50,608 bases of DNA from a virus. Shown piece after piece: positions 33,555-50,608 of this stretch (positions are counted from its first letter, which is position 1; each line of letters starts with the position of its first letter). A model generated the notes under the pieces. The model saw only the letters and a program-made list of their open reading frames with translations. It was not told the origin of the DNA and did no database searches. A program made the position numbers and the translations under genes. Location: positions 1-50,608 of the IMG/VR virus record IMGVR_UViG_3300048597_000651; one strand, written 5' to 3'.

Positions 33555-33893
33555 TCATTCGCCCCCGCGCACTGCGTTGCGCCGCATCGCATCGCGCAAA
33601 ACCGTCGGCGCCCACGCCGGCACGAACGTCGAGTGCTTGGCCTTCGGCGTCACCACCGTCATCTCGATCAGCCGGCCCTGCTGGACGCCCCACTTGAGGG
33701 CCAGCGTGATCGTCGCCCCGCGCGTCAGCCCCGTCGCCGCCTGCAACTCGTTGTAGGTGGGCGGACGGCAATGCTCCACATACAGCCGCTCATAGGTCGC
33801 CAGCAGGTGCAGCCGGCGCGCCGTTGACTGCGTCTTCGTCGTAATCTTCCGTGCGCTTGTCGTCATCGTTGTTGCCATCGTCGTTGTCGCCAC
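33555..33893 (-). CDS. Winged-helix DNA-binding protein, about 112 aa
   Basis: The core YERLYVEHCRPPTYNELQAA and TGLTRGATITLALKWGVQQG match a winged helix like the LexA N-terminal domain. The N-terminal Thr/Met-rich stretch overlaps the upstream zinc-ribbon gene; the real start may be an internal ATG (33878 or 33866). It probably regulates the replication/membrane operon in which it lies. Confidence 0.6.
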   Translation of the reverse strand: MATTTMATTMTTSARKITTKTQSTARRLHLLATYERLYVEHCRPPTYNELQAATGLTRGATITLALKWGVQQGRLIEMTVVTPKAKHSTFVPAWAPTVLRDAMRRNAVRGGE

Positions 33894-34080: not shown

Positions 34081-35142
34081 CTACATCGACCGCTCCTGTG
34101 ATCGCTCCTGTTCTTCCCGCCGGCGCTTCTCCTCGCGCTCGACTGCCTCAGCCTCTTTGCGCGCCCGCTCGGATTCGGTATACACCGCCTGCGAGCGACG
34201 AAACGTTCTGCCATTTGCCATCTGCCGCTCGGCCTGTTTACGTTCGCGTTCTGCGCGCTGTTTGAGTGTGTCGTCGGCACTCTCTGCCGGTTGCGCCGGC
34301 GGCATCTCGAACAGCACCATCTGGCCGGTTTCGGCATATTCCTCAAGGATGCAGATGCCGACCGCCGTCACACTGCGCACCAGCCCGACCCGCTGCCGTG
34401 CCGCCGTTGATTCCTGCGCCCGTCGCAAATCGGCCAGAATTTCCTCTGTCCGCTCGACCGTAAAATGCTTCGCGGCCAGCGCGACAATCGCGTCACACAA
34501 CACCTGGCGCTTGCGTCCGGCGATGCCAAACTCGTAAATCACCGCCAGCACGCGCTTGCGGAAATCCGCCAGAAGCTCGAAGCGCGCCGTCCCCTCAAGA
34601 GGATTCACAAAGTTCACAAAGTTCATGCCAGCAGCAGCTTGCATGCTGCTTGCTTGATTAACTTCTGTAGTACGTACATGTACTGATTCAGAGCAGATTT
34701 CGCGTGAACTTTGTGAACTTTGTGAACTTTGTGAACTTTGAGCCACGCCTAAACATGAACTTTGTGAACTTTGTGAACTTTGTGGATTTACAAAGTTCAC
34801 AAAGTTCATGCTGTTTTGCACATCGTTTTGCGCAATGTTTCCCACGTCCGGGGCAACCGGAAGTTCACCCGTCGGGGCAACCGACATGAGCTGCGCGCCG
34901 CCTGCGCGCAACAGGTGAACCGTCGTGGCACTTTGCTTGTTTTGCTTGCGGCTGATCCAGCCGCCGGCTTCCAGTTCCTGCATCCAACGCACGACCAGCG
35001 GGTAGGCGCAACTCAGCGCCTTCGCCAGATCGGCATTTCGTGTGGTGAGCGCATCGCCACCGGCGTGCTGCCGCAGCCGGTCGTAGAAACGCTGCGCCTT
35101 CTCGCTCGGTTTCTCGCACGGTTTTGCGTTGTCGTGTGTCAA
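34081..35142 (-). CDS. Replication initiator-like protein carrying internal iterons, 353 aa
   Basis: Residues 1-80 hold a winged-helix region (FYDRLRQHAGGDALTTRNAD, LAKALSCAYPLVVRWMQELEAGGWISR). The middle (about 110-180) is an unusual linker of NFVNFVN and SQSSQSSQSS runs encoded by the iterons described separately. A second folded region follows (FELLADFRKRVLAVIYEFGI, VLCDAIVALAAKHFTVERTE), and the end is a very basic coiled coil (RERKQAERQMANGRTFRRSQ). This layout, with origin repeats inside the gene, resembles phage/plasmid initiators such as lambda O. Start is TTG 35142, with no ATG alternative near. Function is inferred. Confidence 0.6.
   Translation of the reverse strand: MTHDNAKPCEKPSEKAQRFYDRLRQHAGGDALTTRNADLAKALSCAYPLVVRWMQELEAGGWISRKQNKQSATTVHLLRAGGAQLMSVAPTGELPVAPDVGNIAQNDVQNSMNFVNFVNPQSSQSSQSSCLGVAQSSQSSQSSQSSREICSESVHVRTTEVNQASSMQAAAGMNFVNFVNPLEGTARFELLADFRKRVLAVIYEFGIAGRKRQVLCDAIVALAAKHFTVERTEEILADLRRAQESTAARQRVGLVRSVTAVGICILEEYAETGQMVLFEMPPAQPAESADDTLKQRAERERKQAERQMANGRTFRRSQAVYTESERARKEAEAVEREEKRRREEQERSQERSM
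34604..34809. repeat. Iterons: 11 copies of GTGAACTTT in two orientations (putative origin)
   Basis: Two inverted copies (TTCACAAAG) at 34604-34621, four direct copies GTGAACTTT at 34704-34739, three direct copies at 34755-34781 (the first ATGAACTTT), and two inverted copies at 34792-34809. A degenerate unit, GTGGATTTA, at 34782-34790 partly resembles a DnaA box. Between the first two groups lie the inverted repeats AGCAGC/GCTGCT and AGTAC/GTACT. The repeats code for NFV in one orientation and SQS in the other, so DNA, not protein, appears to be what is conserved. Confidence 0.85.
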
Positions 35143-35319: not shown

Positions 35320-35688
35320 CTACGCCGGCATCAGTTCATCGATGGGCACGTAGTGCGGCTCACTTCTTCGTGCGGTGCTGCCGGCGGCCGCTTTTGGGGC
35401 CTTGCCCCGTTCGCTGCCCCGTTCGCTGCCCCGGTCGGGCAGGGGCGGCGGCTCGTTCAGGCTCAACAGCCGCGCAATCGCCAGTTGGATCAGCCGGCTG
35501 CGATCCATGCGCTGATCTGCATCCGCGATGTCCGCGTTCAGTTGCGCCAGATATTCATTCACCGCGTTATCCATCCACGCCGGCCACGAAATGCCGCGCT
35601 GCACCCGCCCAGGCGACGCCGGCGCAATCAACTGCTTCAACTCCCTCAGCACGGCCTCATTCACTGCCGCCTTGTTTGCCTCTCTCAT
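35320..35688 (-). CDS. Ribbon-helix-helix-like small regulator, 122 aa
   Basis: GGAGG precedes the ATG by 4-5 bases. The middle (ISWPAWMDNAVNEYLAQLNA, then RMDRSRLIQLAIARLLSLNE) fits a helical DNA-binding or CopG-like domain, in which SRLIQLAIARLL is the second helix. A tail rich in Glu, Arg and Ser follows (DRGSERGSERGKAPKAAA). As the first gene before the initiator, it could be the transcriptional repressor of the replication unit. Assignment to the family is tentative. Confidence 0.55.
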   Translation of the reverse strand: MREANKAAVNEAVLRELKQLIAPASPGRVQRGISWPAWMDNAVNEYLAQLNADIADADQRMDRSRLIQLAIARLLSLNEPPPLPDRGSERGSERGKAPKAAAGSTARRSEPHYVPIDELMPA

Positions 35689-41596: not shown

Positions 41597-41703
41597 CAGG
41601 CGGCGGGATTCTCCTTTCCCGCTTTGGGTTGGTTTCGCTGGCGGCCGGATCATGGGGCGGCTGCCAGCGAGCCGGAATGCACAGGAACATGGGAGCACAT
41701 GAA
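41597..41703 (+). promoter_or_regulatory. Structured leader before the 41704 gene
   Basis: Two hairpins can be drawn: GCGGGA/TCCCGC around TTCTCCTT, followed by TTT, and CGCTGGC/GCCAGCG spanning about 41636-41669. The leader ends with ATGGGAGCACATGAA, whose GGGAG is the ribosome site for ATG 41704. The sequence ATGGGAGCACA recurs in the 43454-43634 gap, so the two leaders may be related. Confidence 0.4.
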
Positions 41704-42855
41704 ATGGATCAACTTCAATTTGGCGCGTTCATCGAGCAACTGACGCGCATCGCCAATGCGCTGGAAGCCGCAAAGCCGGCAGAGCCGGATGCGATCACGC
41801 TGCCCATCGGCGCATACAAAACGTTCGACTGGACGCAGATCAACTGCCGCGTGTTCGCCGACGATGATTTCGGCGTGTCGCAGGTGTTCTGCATGAATGA
41901 CGGGCGCGTCTATACGCGCCGCACCAACGACAAATTCGGCTCTGAAATCTGGTTCTCGCGCGGTGACGGCAAAGCCGCCGACGGCACCGCGCGCTACAAG
42001 CGGTTGATCGAATTCCGCGAGATCAAGGACGCTGAACCCATCGGGCGCAAGGCCGAGCAGGCGCTGAAACACGCGCCGAACGTGCAAGCACCTGAATTAA
42101 AAGCGCCTGCGCTCAACGCGCCGCGCATCGAGTTGCCGGCAGACCTGCGCAAAGACTGGCTCTACTGGCATGACGAAGCTTCGAAGTTCGGCGCCGTGCC
42201 GGCAGAACTCGGCATCTACGAAGCCGACACCATCAGCAGCGTGAAGGACAAGATCGCGCGCCTCACGGCGCTGGTCGAAGCCGGCGCGGTCGCAGATGCG
42301 CAGATACTGCTCGACAAGCTGGTCATGGCACTAGCCGACGCGAAAGAGGCCGGCGTCGATGTGCCGGCAGAGTTCTATGCGACCGCCGGCGTTCCCGCTG
42401 ATGTGATCGAGATGCGCATCGGCACGGTGAAGAACCTTATCGCCGCCCAACAGGGCGCGCAGGTGATGACGCAATCAGCGACACAATCGGCACCCGCGCA
42501 ACAGCCTATTGCAAACGTTGCTGCCCAGCAGGTCATCAACGACCTGCGCGACGCCGCCGGCAAGAGCGCCCAGCGCGTCACCACGCAGTCGCAGGACTTC
42601 GACATCATCAGCGCGCTGGAGCATGTCTGTGGCACGGAGAAGGCGCGCCAGAGGTTCACCGAGATCGTGTTTGGCGAAGCGCGCTTCGACAAGCTCAAGC
42701 CGGCGCAGCGTTGCGCGCTGCTCACCTGGCTCAGGCCGGCGCGTGTCGCGAGTGGCAAAGCTCAGCCAACCAACCCGAAGGCCGCCGCCGGCGTTGCCGC
42801 CGTGCTGACCATGCCGCAGGCAGCAGAATCCCCTGAACAGGCGGTGACGGCGTGA
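41704..42855 (+). CDS. Uncharacterised early protein, candidate DNA-metabolism gene, 383 aa
   Basis: I place the start at ATG 41704, eight bases after GGGAG. N-terminal residues 30-120 contain a beta-rich domain (RVFADDDFGVSQVFCMNDGR, FGSEIWFSRGDGKA). The middle is helical, and near the end VINDLRDAAGKSAQRVTTQS and ALEHVCGTEKARQRFTEIVF suggest another folded unit. I do not recognise it. Its place before the ASCH and RuvB-like genes makes a role in DNA replication or recombination possible. Confidence 0.6.
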   Translation: MDQLQFGAFIEQLTRIANALEAAKPAEPDAITLPIGAYKTFDWTQINCRVFADDDFGVSQVFCMNDGRVYTRRTNDKFGSEIWFSRGDGKAADGTARYKRLIEFREIKDAEPIGRKAEQALKHAPNVQAPELKAPALNAPRIELPADLRKDWLYWHDEASKFGAVPAELGIYEADTISSVKDKIARLTALVEAGAVADAQILLDKLVMALADAKEAGVDVPAEFYATAGVPADVIEMRIGTVKNLIAAQQGAQVMTQSATQSAPAQQPIANVAAQQVINDLRDAAGKSAQRVTTQSQDFDIISALEHVCGTEKARQRFTEIVFGEARFDKLKPAQRCALLTWLRPARVASGKAQPTNPKAAAGVAAVLTMPQAAESPEQAVTA

Positions 42856-43634: not shown

Positions 43635-43976
43635 ATGGCGCGCAACATGAGCTTCATGCTTACCGCGCAGCAGGTGCTCGCCGGCACGAAGGACGTGACA
43701 CGCCGGCACGGCTGGTGGAATCTCAAGCCAGGCGACCCGCTCAATGCCGTCGAGAAGGGTATGGGGCTGAAGCGCGGGCAGAAGATCGTCAAGCTGCGCC
43801 GCATCGAAGTCGTCTCGATTCGCCACGAGCGACTGGACGCCATCACGCCGGCGGACGTGTGCCGCGAAGGATTCCCTGAAATGACGCCCTTGCAGTTCAT
43901 CGAGATGTTCTGCAAAACGCATCAGGGTTGCACGCCGGCCACCATCATCAATCGCATCGAGTTCAAATATCTATGA
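43635..43976 (+). CDS. ASCH-domain protein, 113 aa
   Basis: The motifs LTAQQVLAGTKDVTRRHGWW and GDPLNAVEKGMGLKRGQKIV, and the end TPLQFIEMFCKTHQGC with NRIEFKYL, fit the ASCH fold (a PUA-like beta barrel) common in phages. ASCH proteins bind or process modified nucleosides or RNA; the exact role of the phage forms is unclear. It overlaps the following ATPase by ATGA. Confidence 0.75.
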   Translation: MARNMSFMLTAQQVLAGTKDVTRRHGWWNLKPGDPLNAVEKGMGLKRGQKIVKLRRIEVVSIRHERLDAITPADVCREGFPEMTPLQFIEMFCKTHQGCTPATIINRIEFKYL

Positions 43977-45010
43977 ACACACCATCGACCGACATTCGCA
44001 CTCGCGTTGACGACGCCTTCGCCGGCTTCATCGGCAACACGCCGGCGGTGTATGCCATCAAGCGCAGTCTGCGCGTCGCGCTCTCGCACACTCCGGCGCG
44101 CATGGATCGCGTGTTTCTGTTTGTCGGCGGCCCGTCGCTGGGCAAGACGACGATAGCGAAGCGCACCGCAAGCGCGCTCGGCCTGCCGTTCCTCCAACTC
44201 GACGGCACAGCGATCAAAACCCGCGAGCAACTGTTCGACGCGCTTGAAGACATGCTCGTTGATGGCGGCCTGCCAACAAAGCGGGTGGGTGAGCGCAGCG
44301 GCATGCCGATGATCGAGTATCCGCCCTGCGCCATCTTTATCGACGAGATTCACACGCTGGGCGCCGGCGTCCAGAACGCGCTGCTCACCGCGCTCGAAGC
44401 GAGCGACCGCAGTGTCGTATTGAGCCGCGCCGGCGTGCGTCGTGTGGCGCTGGTCGGCAACGTGCTGTTCATGTTCGCCACCACGAAGCAGGGACTGCTC
44501 GACGATGCATTCCGCTCGCGCTGCACCGAGATTCTGTTGCAGCCATATTCGCAGTCGGAGATCGAAGAAATGGTGCGGCTGAACTACGCCGGCTTGCCGG
44601 CTGAGGCCGTGCCGCTGGTCGCTCGCGCATCGCGTCTCGTGCCGCGACGGGCGTTTATGCTCGCGCGCGATGTGTCTGAGGAGATCGCCGACACGGGCAA
44701 GCCGGTCGAAACGTGCTTCGCGCACGTCATGTATGGTCTCGGCATCGTCAGCCGCAATGGCCTGACGCATGATGATCTCGCATACCTCAACGCGCTAGTG
44801 AATGAGCGCCGGCCGCTGGGCGAGCGCGTCATCATCGCATCGCTAGAGGGCATCGAATCCGAGCGCGTGCGCGATGAGATCGAGCCGTATCTGAAGCGGC
44901 TCGGCTACATCAAGCTCGCCAAAGACGGGCGCGTCATCACACCCGACGGCCTTGATGCGCACACCCGCATCAAGGCGCGCCTGGCCGAACTGCCGCTGGG
45001 AGTGAACTGA
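43973..45010 (+). CDS. RuvB-like AAA+ ATPase, 345 aa
   Basis: Start at ATG 43973, overlapping the previous stop. Walker A is GGPSLGKTT (residues 52-60), Walker B IFIDEIH (121-127), a sensor-like FMFATTKQGLLDDA and the arginine finger region FRSRCTEILL follow. The C-terminal winged helix reads YLKRLGYIKLAKDGRVITPD, as in RuvB. These features make a Holliday-junction-type helicase motor the best guess; length is near that of RuvB (about 335-350). No ruvA or ruvC is present in the window. It may drive phage recombination or replication fork remodelling, possibly with the host RuvA. Confidence 0.8.
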   Translation: MNTPSTDIRTRVDDAFAGFIGNTPAVYAIKRSLRVALSHTPARMDRVFLFVGGPSLGKTTIAKRTASALGLPFLQLDGTAIKTREQLFDALEDMLVDGGLPTKRVGERSGMPMIEYPPCAIFIDEIHTLGAGVQNALLTALEASDRSVVLSRAGVRRVALVGNVLFMFATTKQGLLDDAFRSRCTEILLQPYSQSEIEEMVRLNYAGLPAEAVPLVARASRLVPRRAFMLARDVSEEIADTGKPVETCFAHVMYGLGIVSRNGLTHDDLAYLNALVNERRPLGERVIIASLEGIESERVRDEIEPYLKRLGYIKLAKDGRVITPDGLDAHTRIKARLAELPLGVN

Positions 45011-48929: not shown

Positions 48930-50608
48930 CCGGCGGCTACTACCGCAAGTCGCAGGTATTCGGCGAAGAGGATCGCGTCAGCACCGCACGTCAGCGCGAA
49001 GCGATCCTGCGCGAAGGCGAGCGCACCGGACACAACATCGAATGGTGGTGCGATGAGGAAGGCCATCGCTCAGGCCGGCACGATCACACGCGGCCAGGCT
49101 ACATGCAGTTCAAGCGCCGGCTTATTTCCGGCGCATATCGCACGGTCATCTTCTATCGTCTTGACCGCGCCAACCGCTCGATCAAAGAGACGATCTGGCT
49201 GGTCGAACACTGCCAGAAGGCCGGCGTGCGCCTCATCATCATCCGCGACGGCTTCGACTCTGCCCGTGACGGCTGGCAGGCGCGCGCGATTCGCCGGCTG
49301 TATCACGACGCGGTTGACAATCAGGGCGAAGCCGACGATGCCGCCGACCGGATGCGTGATGCGATCCGGCACGCGAAATCGAAGGGCATTCCGTGGGGCA
49401 CGACGCCGAAAGGGCTGCTGCGCGTCGGCATCGGCTCACAGGCGCGCTGGGTGAAGCGCGCAGCGCATGAGCCTCGCTCAAAACGCCAAACTGACAATAG
49501 CGCCGGCGACGTGCGCACGTGGCTGACGCTGTTTGCGACGCACTCATATCAGGCGACCGCCGACGAAGCCAACCGGCGCGGCATGCGCTGGTACGATCGC
49601 GACGGCCTGCCCACCCCGCTCACGCCTGAGCGCATCCGCCAGATCGCCGGCAACCTGCTGACCTACTGCGGCTACGTCATGCCGGCAGCCGGCCACTCTA
49701 AAGCGCGACTGGTGAAGCTGGACGGATCGGGCAGCCTGCTCGACCAATTCGCGCGCGCTTACGACGCCGTGCGCACGGATCACATCGAGCCGATTCTTGA
49801 TCCTGTGGCCGATGCACGCCTGATCGAGCGCATCATCACCAAGCGCCGCAATGCGCAGGGCGCGCTGGATGATCGTGGCCGGCGCGCAAAGAAACGCTGT
49901 GGCATCCTCACGCCGGCGCTGTTCTGGAAACGCGACGACGGCCGGCTGATAAAACTGCGGTCACACGACAACAACGGCACGCACTACTACATCACCCGCG
50001 TCAGGCCGCAGATGAGCTGGCACGCGGAAGCCGTTGAGGACATGCTGCTGGAGCAACTGCGCGGTGTGACGTTCCCGCCGGCGGCGCGCGATGCGCTGCG
50101 CCGGATCATCGCCGCGCAACACGACGACGCCAAACACGCAGAGGCGCAGACCAGTGTCACCCGCGCGCGCAACCGGCTGATTGCGATTGATGAAATGCGT
50201 GTCGAACTGAAGGCGAGACGGGCCGGCGGCGAGATCGACGCGAATCGCTACGCAGAGGACGACGCGCGCTACAGGCAAATGCAGCACGACGCCGAGTTGC
50301 AGCTCTTTCAGGCGCAGCGCGTGCTATCGAGCGCCGGCGACATAGACCAGGTGATTAAGCTGTTGAGCGATCTGGGTGAGGGCATCAGCCGGCTCACGCC
50401 GGAGATGAAGCGCCAGGCCCTGCAGGGGCTGTTCGCAAAGAAGATCATCAGCACCGCCGGCGAGATTGTGCGGCTGGAGCCTCAAGCGTGGATTGCGCAG
50501 CCCTTTGGCGAGCTGGTGTGGGCGTGGCGACATTCGCACCCCGCCCACAATGCTGGAGATATACCAAATGTGACCCCTACGGGACTCGAACCCGTGTTTA
50601 AGCCTTGA
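48866..50608 (+). CDS. Large serine recombinase (integrase), 580 aa
   Basis: The N-terminal resolvase domain has YYRKSQ (catalytic Ser29), VSTARQREAI and TVIFYRLDRANRS with the conserved Arg. A recombinase domain follows (KGIPWGTTPKGLLRVGI and PLTPERIRQIAGNLLTYCGY). Then come a region without the usual Cys zinc ribbon and a coiled coil (RNRLIAIDEMRVELKARRAG). The last residues, VTPTGLEPVFKP, are encoded by the 3' part of a tRNA gene on the other strand, so the stop lies within the attachment site. It should integrate the phage into that tRNA gene. The start (ATG 48866) overlaps the previous gene. Confidence 0.88.
   Translation: MGIKRVAEEQPPTINNAGWPLAGGYYRKSQVFGEEDRVSTARQREAILREGERTGHNIEWWCDEEGHRSGRHDHTRPGYMQFKRRLISGAYRTVIFYRLDRANRSIKETIWLVEHCQKAGVRLIIIRDGFDSARDGWQARAIRRLYHDAVDNQGEADDAADRMRDAIRHAKSKGIPWGTTPKGLLRVGIGSQARWVKRAAHEPRSKRQTDNSAGDVRTWLTLFATHSYQATADEANRRGMRWYDRDGLPTPLTPERIRQIAGNLLTYCGYVMPAAGHSKARLVKLDGSGSLLDQFARAYDAVRTDHIEPILDPVADARLIERIITKRRNAQGALDDRGRRAKKRCGILTPALFWKRDDGRLIKLRSHDNNGTHYYITRVRPQMSWHAEAVEDMLLEQLRGVTFPPAARDALRRIIAAQHDDAKHAEAQTSVTRARNRLIAIDEMRVELKARRAGGEIDANRYAEDDARYRQMQHDAELQLFQAQRVLSSAGDIDQVIKLLSDLGEGISRLTPEMKRQALQGLFAKKIISTAGEIVRLEPQAWIAQPFGELVWAWRHSHPAHNAGDIPNVTPTGLEPVFKP
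50571..50608 (-). tRNA. 3' part of a tRNA gene, presumed attachment-site core
   Basis: Read on the minus strand, ACGGG-TTCGAGT-CCCGT (50595-50579) is a T-arm with the standard TTCGA loop, followed by the acceptor strand AGGGGTC (50578-50572) and the discriminator A at 50571. CCA is not encoded. The 5' part, with the anticodon, lies beyond the right edge, so the isotype cannot be given. The overlap with the recombinase gene marks attR (or the attP core). Confidence 0.75.

Follow-up and report, generated by a model that had tools for sequence, protein, structure and literature searches.

A probable replication origin within the putative initiator gene of an uncultured phage, and its conserved 8-bp core

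Why would a single phage gene carry eleven copies of a 9-bp repeat, in both orientations? The question is raised by the window analysed here, i.e. the whole 50,608-nucleotide stretch of an IMG/VR virus record in which terminase, portal, tyrosine integrase and serine recombinase genes are present. At positions 34609-34809, eight copies of GTGAACTTT and three of the variant ATGAACTTT (the copies at 34618, 34755 and 34801) are arranged as two inverted, four direct, three direct and two inverted repeats. Number, strands and order are all as described in an earlier reading of this DNA, made from the sequence alone, and the ORF at 34081-35142 on the minus strand does contain all eleven copies, as that reading had it (Table 1). 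Of the two spacers that it gave, the one of 15 bases is exact, and the length of the other depends on the phase in which the repeat is read: 77 bases (34627-34703) in the GTGAACTTT phase, 82, the value first proposed, in the TTCACAAAG phase. The peptides attributed to the repeats, SQSSQSS and NFVNFV, are both encoded.

The number of copies is not due to chance. The 8-bp core AAAGTTCA is present 11 times in the 50,608-bp record, each time inside the array (11/11), and no second array was found in the window. With at most one mismatch allowed, the 9-mer occurs 15 times in the window, against a mean of 6.0 and a maximum of 12 in 100 dinucleotide shuffles of the whole window. Synonymous recoding of the gene yielded on average 0.9 cores with the codon usage of phage structural genes and 1.7 with its own codons (maximum 6), to be compared with the 11 observed. 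The array is probably the theta-type replication origin of the phage, placed inside the linker-coding part of its own initiator gene, and we detail below the evidence for this reading and for its rivals.

Table 1. Features of the array, of the gene that contains it and of the neighbouring genes (window coordinates).
Feature	Position	Strand	Basis or remark
Putative replication initiator gene (353 aa; start listed as TTG)	34081..35142	-	Three homologues, AlphaFold2 model, PHROG matches
N-terminal winged-helix domain, aa 14-80, putatively repeat-binding	34903..35103	-	pLDDT about 82-92 in blocks 11-80; wHTH topology
Predicted disordered linker, aa 82-183; whole array inside	34594..34899	-	pLDDT <50 over aa 82-183
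Predicted C-terminal helical domain, aa 181-272	34327..34602	-	Separate model; well conserved in four members
Repeats 1-2, inverted	34609-34617 and 34618-34626	-	Sequence
Repeats 3-6, four direct	34704..34739 (starts 34704, 34713, 34722, 34731)	+	Sequence
Repeats 7-9, three direct	34755..34781 (starts 34755, 34764, 34773)	+	Sequence
Repeats 10-11, inverted	34792..34809 (starts 34792, 34801)	-	Sequence
GTACGTAC palindrome in spacer	34670..34677		All four phages; once per record or piece searched
GCATGC palindrome in spacer	34641..34646		All four phages; longer form GCATGCATGC in G001 and G027
Low-stability stretch, candidate unwinding region	34609..34808		39% GC vs 61.5% for the window
Upstream gene, ribbon-helix-helix-like by eye only	35320..35688	-	tblastn 29-36% identity, 3/3 relatives
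Downstream small DNA-binding-like gene	33555..33893	-	tblastn matches in L051 and L053

Homologous genes were found in three other IMG/VR phages, with 35-43% protein identity over the full alignment. The 18-bp pattern GTGAACTTTGTGAACTTT led to contig L005 (G001), whose array is contained in a gene homologous to that of the window (40% identity), and profile searches then added G027 (L051) and G002 (L053). The known members are four, all from metagenomes, with no isolated phage among them. The homologous gene of all three relatives contains 11 to 14 copies of the core, so that the search for the same repeat in relatives, suggested earlier, was positive in 3/3 cases. In G001, 11 cores were counted, ten direct and exact and one inverted, mostly with a 9-bp spacing in which the spacer base varies. 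The G027 and G002 genes contain 13 and 14 cores respectively, in both orientations, often spaced by 7 bp or single. The repeats are therefore real but, with a core spacing of 9 bp in two phages and of 7 bp or single cores in the other two, the conserved unit is the 8-bp core and not the 9-mer first named. As in the window, cores are confined to this gene in the whole G001 record (11/11) and in the 11.7-kb piece of G002 (14/14), and 13 of the 15 found in the 21-kb piece of G027 belong to it.

Synonymous shuffling of the four genes (two codon models, 5,000 shuffles each) gave means of 0.3 to 1.9 cores, versus 11 to 14 observed, and for each gene the observed number was attained in 0 of 10,000 shuffles. 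G001 has cores in two reading frames (0 and 1), G027 and G002 in all of them (0, 1 and 2). Because they sit in other frames, orientations and spacings, the peptides they encode among the relatives differ (SQSS, ESSE, KVH, NFV, EFKVQSS, NELS). Three diverged relatives thus keep the number and place of AAAGTTCA while peptide, frame, orientation mix and spacing change, which supports the proposal, already present in the sequence-only reading, that selection keeps the DNA core rather than the linker peptide. The outcome that this reading held to speak against it, a linker peptide kept with its 9-mers broken by synonymous changes, is the opposite of what is seen in the three relatives. The four phages are related by descent, and are therefore not independent events; the window and G001 also have structural and early genes in common.

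The family is small in the collections searched. The window protein alone had no match in the single-sequence viral_contigs search or in the phage-collection tblastn, the G001 homologue had none in the plasmid collection (tblastn), and later scans past the three relatives added no further members. Among phages with a related terminase, the initiator homologue was found in none of 24 records and the core array in none of the 17 longer ones; many of these records are fragments, which makes this check weak. A BLAST comparison of the array with phages and plasmids was likewise negative, possibly through repeat filtering.

Arrays of the GTGAACTTT type were also seen elsewhere. In viral contigs outside the phage group, one of them (L007:5876-5986) lies near Prim-Pol/DUF3987, and three others (L009:4541-4558, L097:1739-1783, L100:1323-1367) lie near DUF5906/PriCT-2, the gene being the same in L097 and L100. 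The array at L006:1716-1741 has a P-loop ORF without Pfam match on one side and a ParA gene on the other, and L008:110-135 is similar DNA. For the arrays of L010, L098 and L099, no recognised replication genes were found nearby. Among bacteria (genome_contigs L011-L048), (GTGAACTTT)3 arrays recur in two Bacteroidales MAGs (JALFZG01 and CAMGMU01), mostly in intergenic positions; three further genomes (a Holophagaceae MAG, Sphingomonas panni and Flavobacterium sp. Root935) have one each, and some of the bacterial arrays are inverted pairs. The arrays beside primase-type genes in unrelated viral contigs could mean that AAAGTTCA recurs as an origin motif and is recognised by a host factor common to them, or by initiators that converged on it, instead of by the initiator of one phage family. 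We find this reading doubtful, and the primase-adjacent arrays are to be taken as a lead counted from few loci.

Might the array be a selfish or slippage-made tandem repeat that expanded in a tolerant, disordered linker? The identical tandem arrays of some bacteria, notably the many found, mostly between genes, in the two Bacteroidales MAGs, would fit with this explanation, as would a related array within a low-complexity ORF of the unrelated viral contig L098. However, it is weakened by the mixed orientation of the repeats, the isolated cores and the changes of period, as slippage can produce neither the two orientations, nor single cores, nor a passage from a 9- to a 7-bp period with the core kept. 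Moreover, the same arrangement and a conserved GTACGTAC spacer are shared by four phages at only 35-43% protein identity. We consider slippage extremely unlikely.

We turn to the protein itself. An AlphaFold2 model built from the four sequences (mean pLDDT 67) predicts a winged helix, a disordered linker and a helical C-terminal domain, the latter reaching a mean pLDDT of 79.6 when modelled separately. Upon comparison of the N-terminal domain with VIA-align, RepA_N initiators were among the top five rows: 4pt7_B (Z 10.0, rmsd 3.8, 77 aligned), 4pql_B (Z 10.0, rmsd 3.4, 76 aligned) and 5kbj_H (Z 8.8, rmsd 5.2, 81 aligned). They tie with other winged helices, e.g. 5trd_A (Z 10.0, rmsd 1.8, 66 aligned), and MarR, LexA, CRP and other winged helices score equally or nearly so; the RepA_N match therefore indicates the fold only, not the family. 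The C-terminal domain has no recognised relative, with no PDB match at E <= 0.001, and for this reason no DnaD-like C-terminal domain was detected.

Profile searches pointed more directly to replication. Three members match the PHROG 'replication initiation protein' phrog_270 (best 1.5e-7), and three of the four full-length proteins, the window protein being the one without match, hit the 'replication initiation O-like' phrog_391 (best 5.5e-5). Once the linker was removed, the N-terminal parts still matched phrog_270 (1.7e-5 for L051) or, weakly, phrog_4221, and only reached 0.02-0.05 with phrog_391. The best PHROG match of the window protein itself is 'transcriptional regulator'. Neither PF06970 (RepA_N) nor the lambda-O Pfam profile matched any of the four proteins at E <= 1, a threshold at which HMMER filters drop most matches above about 0.1. 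Given the absence of a Pfam match and of a recognised relative for the C-terminal domain, the protein is not filed as a member of either family. The description of the gene as 'initiator-like' thus agrees with the winged-helix prediction and with weak-to-moderate PHROG matches to replication initiators, strongest for the relatives. Initiator family and repeat are both undescribed in the libraries searched, and a literature search on the 9-mer, and on iterons in Chloroflexi phages, returned nothing relevant.

A winged helix is also the fold of MarR/LexA-type regulators, so that the repeats might be operators, the wHTH protein or a neighbour acting as the repressor of its own gene or operon. We find this very unlikely as the main function: the sites occupy the middle part of the gene and are hundreds of bases away from where it starts, they number 11 to 14 with none elsewhere in the window or in G001, and the relatives match replication-initiator PHROGs. 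Iteron initiators commonly autoregulate, and transcriptional control may well be exerted in addition to origin function.

Returning to the origin, which the earlier reading had judged probable, DNA-level conservation of the core and the initiator-like features of the protein both support it. We infer that the initiator, and not the protein of a neighbour gene, would bind the repeats, and that strand opening and the start of replication would occur here. The N-terminal winged-helix domain would bind AAAGTTCA sites on both strands, the duplex would be opened by the bound initiator together with the AT-richer array, and the C-terminal helical domain would recruit a helicase or primase. The linker peptide would accept whatever the repeats encode, the DNA being selected and the peptide following.

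The spacer and the physical properties of the DNA were also examined. The GTACGTAC palindrome is found in 4/4 phages, in the spacer that separates the last direct repeat from the terminal inverted one; its presence, given the peptide, has a P of about 0.003-0.01 per gene, and it uses rare codons (GTA, about 3.2% of Val, and CGT, about 8.7% of Arg). With a P of 0.27-0.93 given the peptide, GCATGC is nothing unusual. A hairpin formed by the inverted copies was considered and set aside, as it is not conserved: G001 has only one exact inverted core. Of the separate 200-bp stretches of the window, the array is one of the three with the lowest stability, and in the L053 piece, as in the initial 16 kb of G001, no stretch of 200 bp is less stable than the array. 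This low-stability stretch overlaps the repeats themselves instead of lying beside them, and no separate, strongly AT-rich tract was found next to them. A DnaA-box-like TTTTGCACA, one of two matches in the window, is present at 34814-34822, four bases past the last repeat; it was not found in the relatives and is treated as unproven. A GC-skew signal at 34.7 kb, which the earlier reading had looked to, did not appear, with no clear switch or inflection there; skew is uninformative at this place because gene orientation switches near 38.8 kb.

The gene neighbourhood brings in the main rival, a parC-like partition site. The array would be a centromere: the ribbon-helix-helix-like protein encoded upstream would bind it, and a ParM-type actin filament would act with it. 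parC sites typically contain short iterons, the small upstream gene (without Pfam match) is kept in 4/4 phages, and an actin-like partition protein, phrog_691, is encoded in G001 (7e-24; L049:6915-8168), within about 1.7 kb of the array, and in G027 (1e-26; G027:46380-47330). Yet some 11 kb separate the actin gene of G027 from its array, and in all four phages the array stays in the wHTH gene and not beside the actin gene. The window keeps the full array but yielded no ParM homologue, with the reservation that its record may be incomplete, while G001 and G027 do have one; this weakens the partition reading. The tyrosine and serine recombinases of the window are those expected of an integrating phage. 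Overall a parC-like role is very unlikely.

Other genes of these phages deserve mention. The ParM-type genes of G001 and G027, the latter of which also carries tyrosine and serine recombinases, suggest that persistence as a plasmid is possible for some of these phages. At the position of the small downstream gene, G001 has a gene (L049:6233-6742) with a LexA_DNA_bind match (E 1e-7). Of those window proteins that were scanned, none was recognised as a DnaB-type helicase or loader, which speaks against the origin reading. In the rightward gene block, the ORF at 43928-45010 codes for a RuvB-like AAA+ protein with a RuvB_C winged helix, possibly a helicase or helicase loader. At 41629-42855, a DdrB-like domain was detected (PF12747, E 5e-7; the L051 gene is 63% identical); DdrB is a single-strand-binding family known from Deinococcus, and in a control search among 14 genomes only Deinobacterium was positive. 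Finally, the right end of the window (50570-50608) looks like the 3' portion of a tRNA gene, with a TTCGAGTCCC arm on the minus strand. ARAGORN found no complete tRNA at this end, and the tRNA-like sequence, beside the serine recombinase, is a possible attachment site.

If the array is the origin, as we think probable, uncultured phages gain a predicted origin and an initiator family without a Pfam name. The locus also offers a natural case of DNA function dictating a peptide, in which four phages keep the motif but not its frame, orientation or spacing. Binding and origin mapping are directly testable, thanks to the restriction of the core to this array in the window and G001 and to the GTACGTAC palindrome.

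How does this arrangement compare with known systems? The iterons of lambda are longer than the present cores and near-palindromic. The origin of lambda and Stx phages lies in the middle of the coding sequence of their own initiator gene, O, with iterons, four in lambda and six in Stx, that are bound by its product, and in lambda an AT-rich tract adjoins them (PMC7466680). The window and its relatives likewise have several iterons inside the initiator gene, but these are 11 to 14 short 8-bp cores in mixed orientation, with no separate AT-rich tract, and the protein has no lambda-O Pfam match, the PHROG 'O-like' matches being restricted to relatives. In SPP1, a direct-repeat origin, oriL, lies within gene 38, which encodes the origin-binding protein; SPP1 further has an AT-rich DUE and another origin, oriR (PMC6316719). 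Repeats inside the gene of the known or putative origin-binding protein are common to both; in the window, no second array was found. For the extrachromosomal mycobacteriophages Miko and Rachaly, which encode an HTH RepA, the origin was localised no more closely than to repA or the region upstream of it (PMC7157519). A phage-coded HTH initiator with an origin suspected in or adjoining its gene is a point in common with the window, and no sequence match was found in the phage collection.

The RepA_N initiators offer a further parallel. That of plasmid pSK41 has a wHTH N-terminal domain, a central linker encoded by the ori inside the gene and a genus-specific C-terminal domain (PMC5703833), and a RepA_N initiator is also found on a phage satellite, PLE (PMC7145576). 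Like the initiators of pSK41, pTZ2162 and PLE, the window protein has a predicted wHTH N-terminal domain (Z 8.8-10.0 to 4pt7, 4pql and 5kbj, in a tie with other winged helices), and its linker would likewise be encoded by the ori. It differs from them by the absence of a PF06970 match and by a C-terminal domain without match to a solved fold at E <= 0.001, and the four Rep boxes of pSK41 are to be compared with the 11 repeats of the window array. The arrangement itself is therefore already known, from lambda and some plasmids; the initiator family and its repeat are new relative to the libraries searched.
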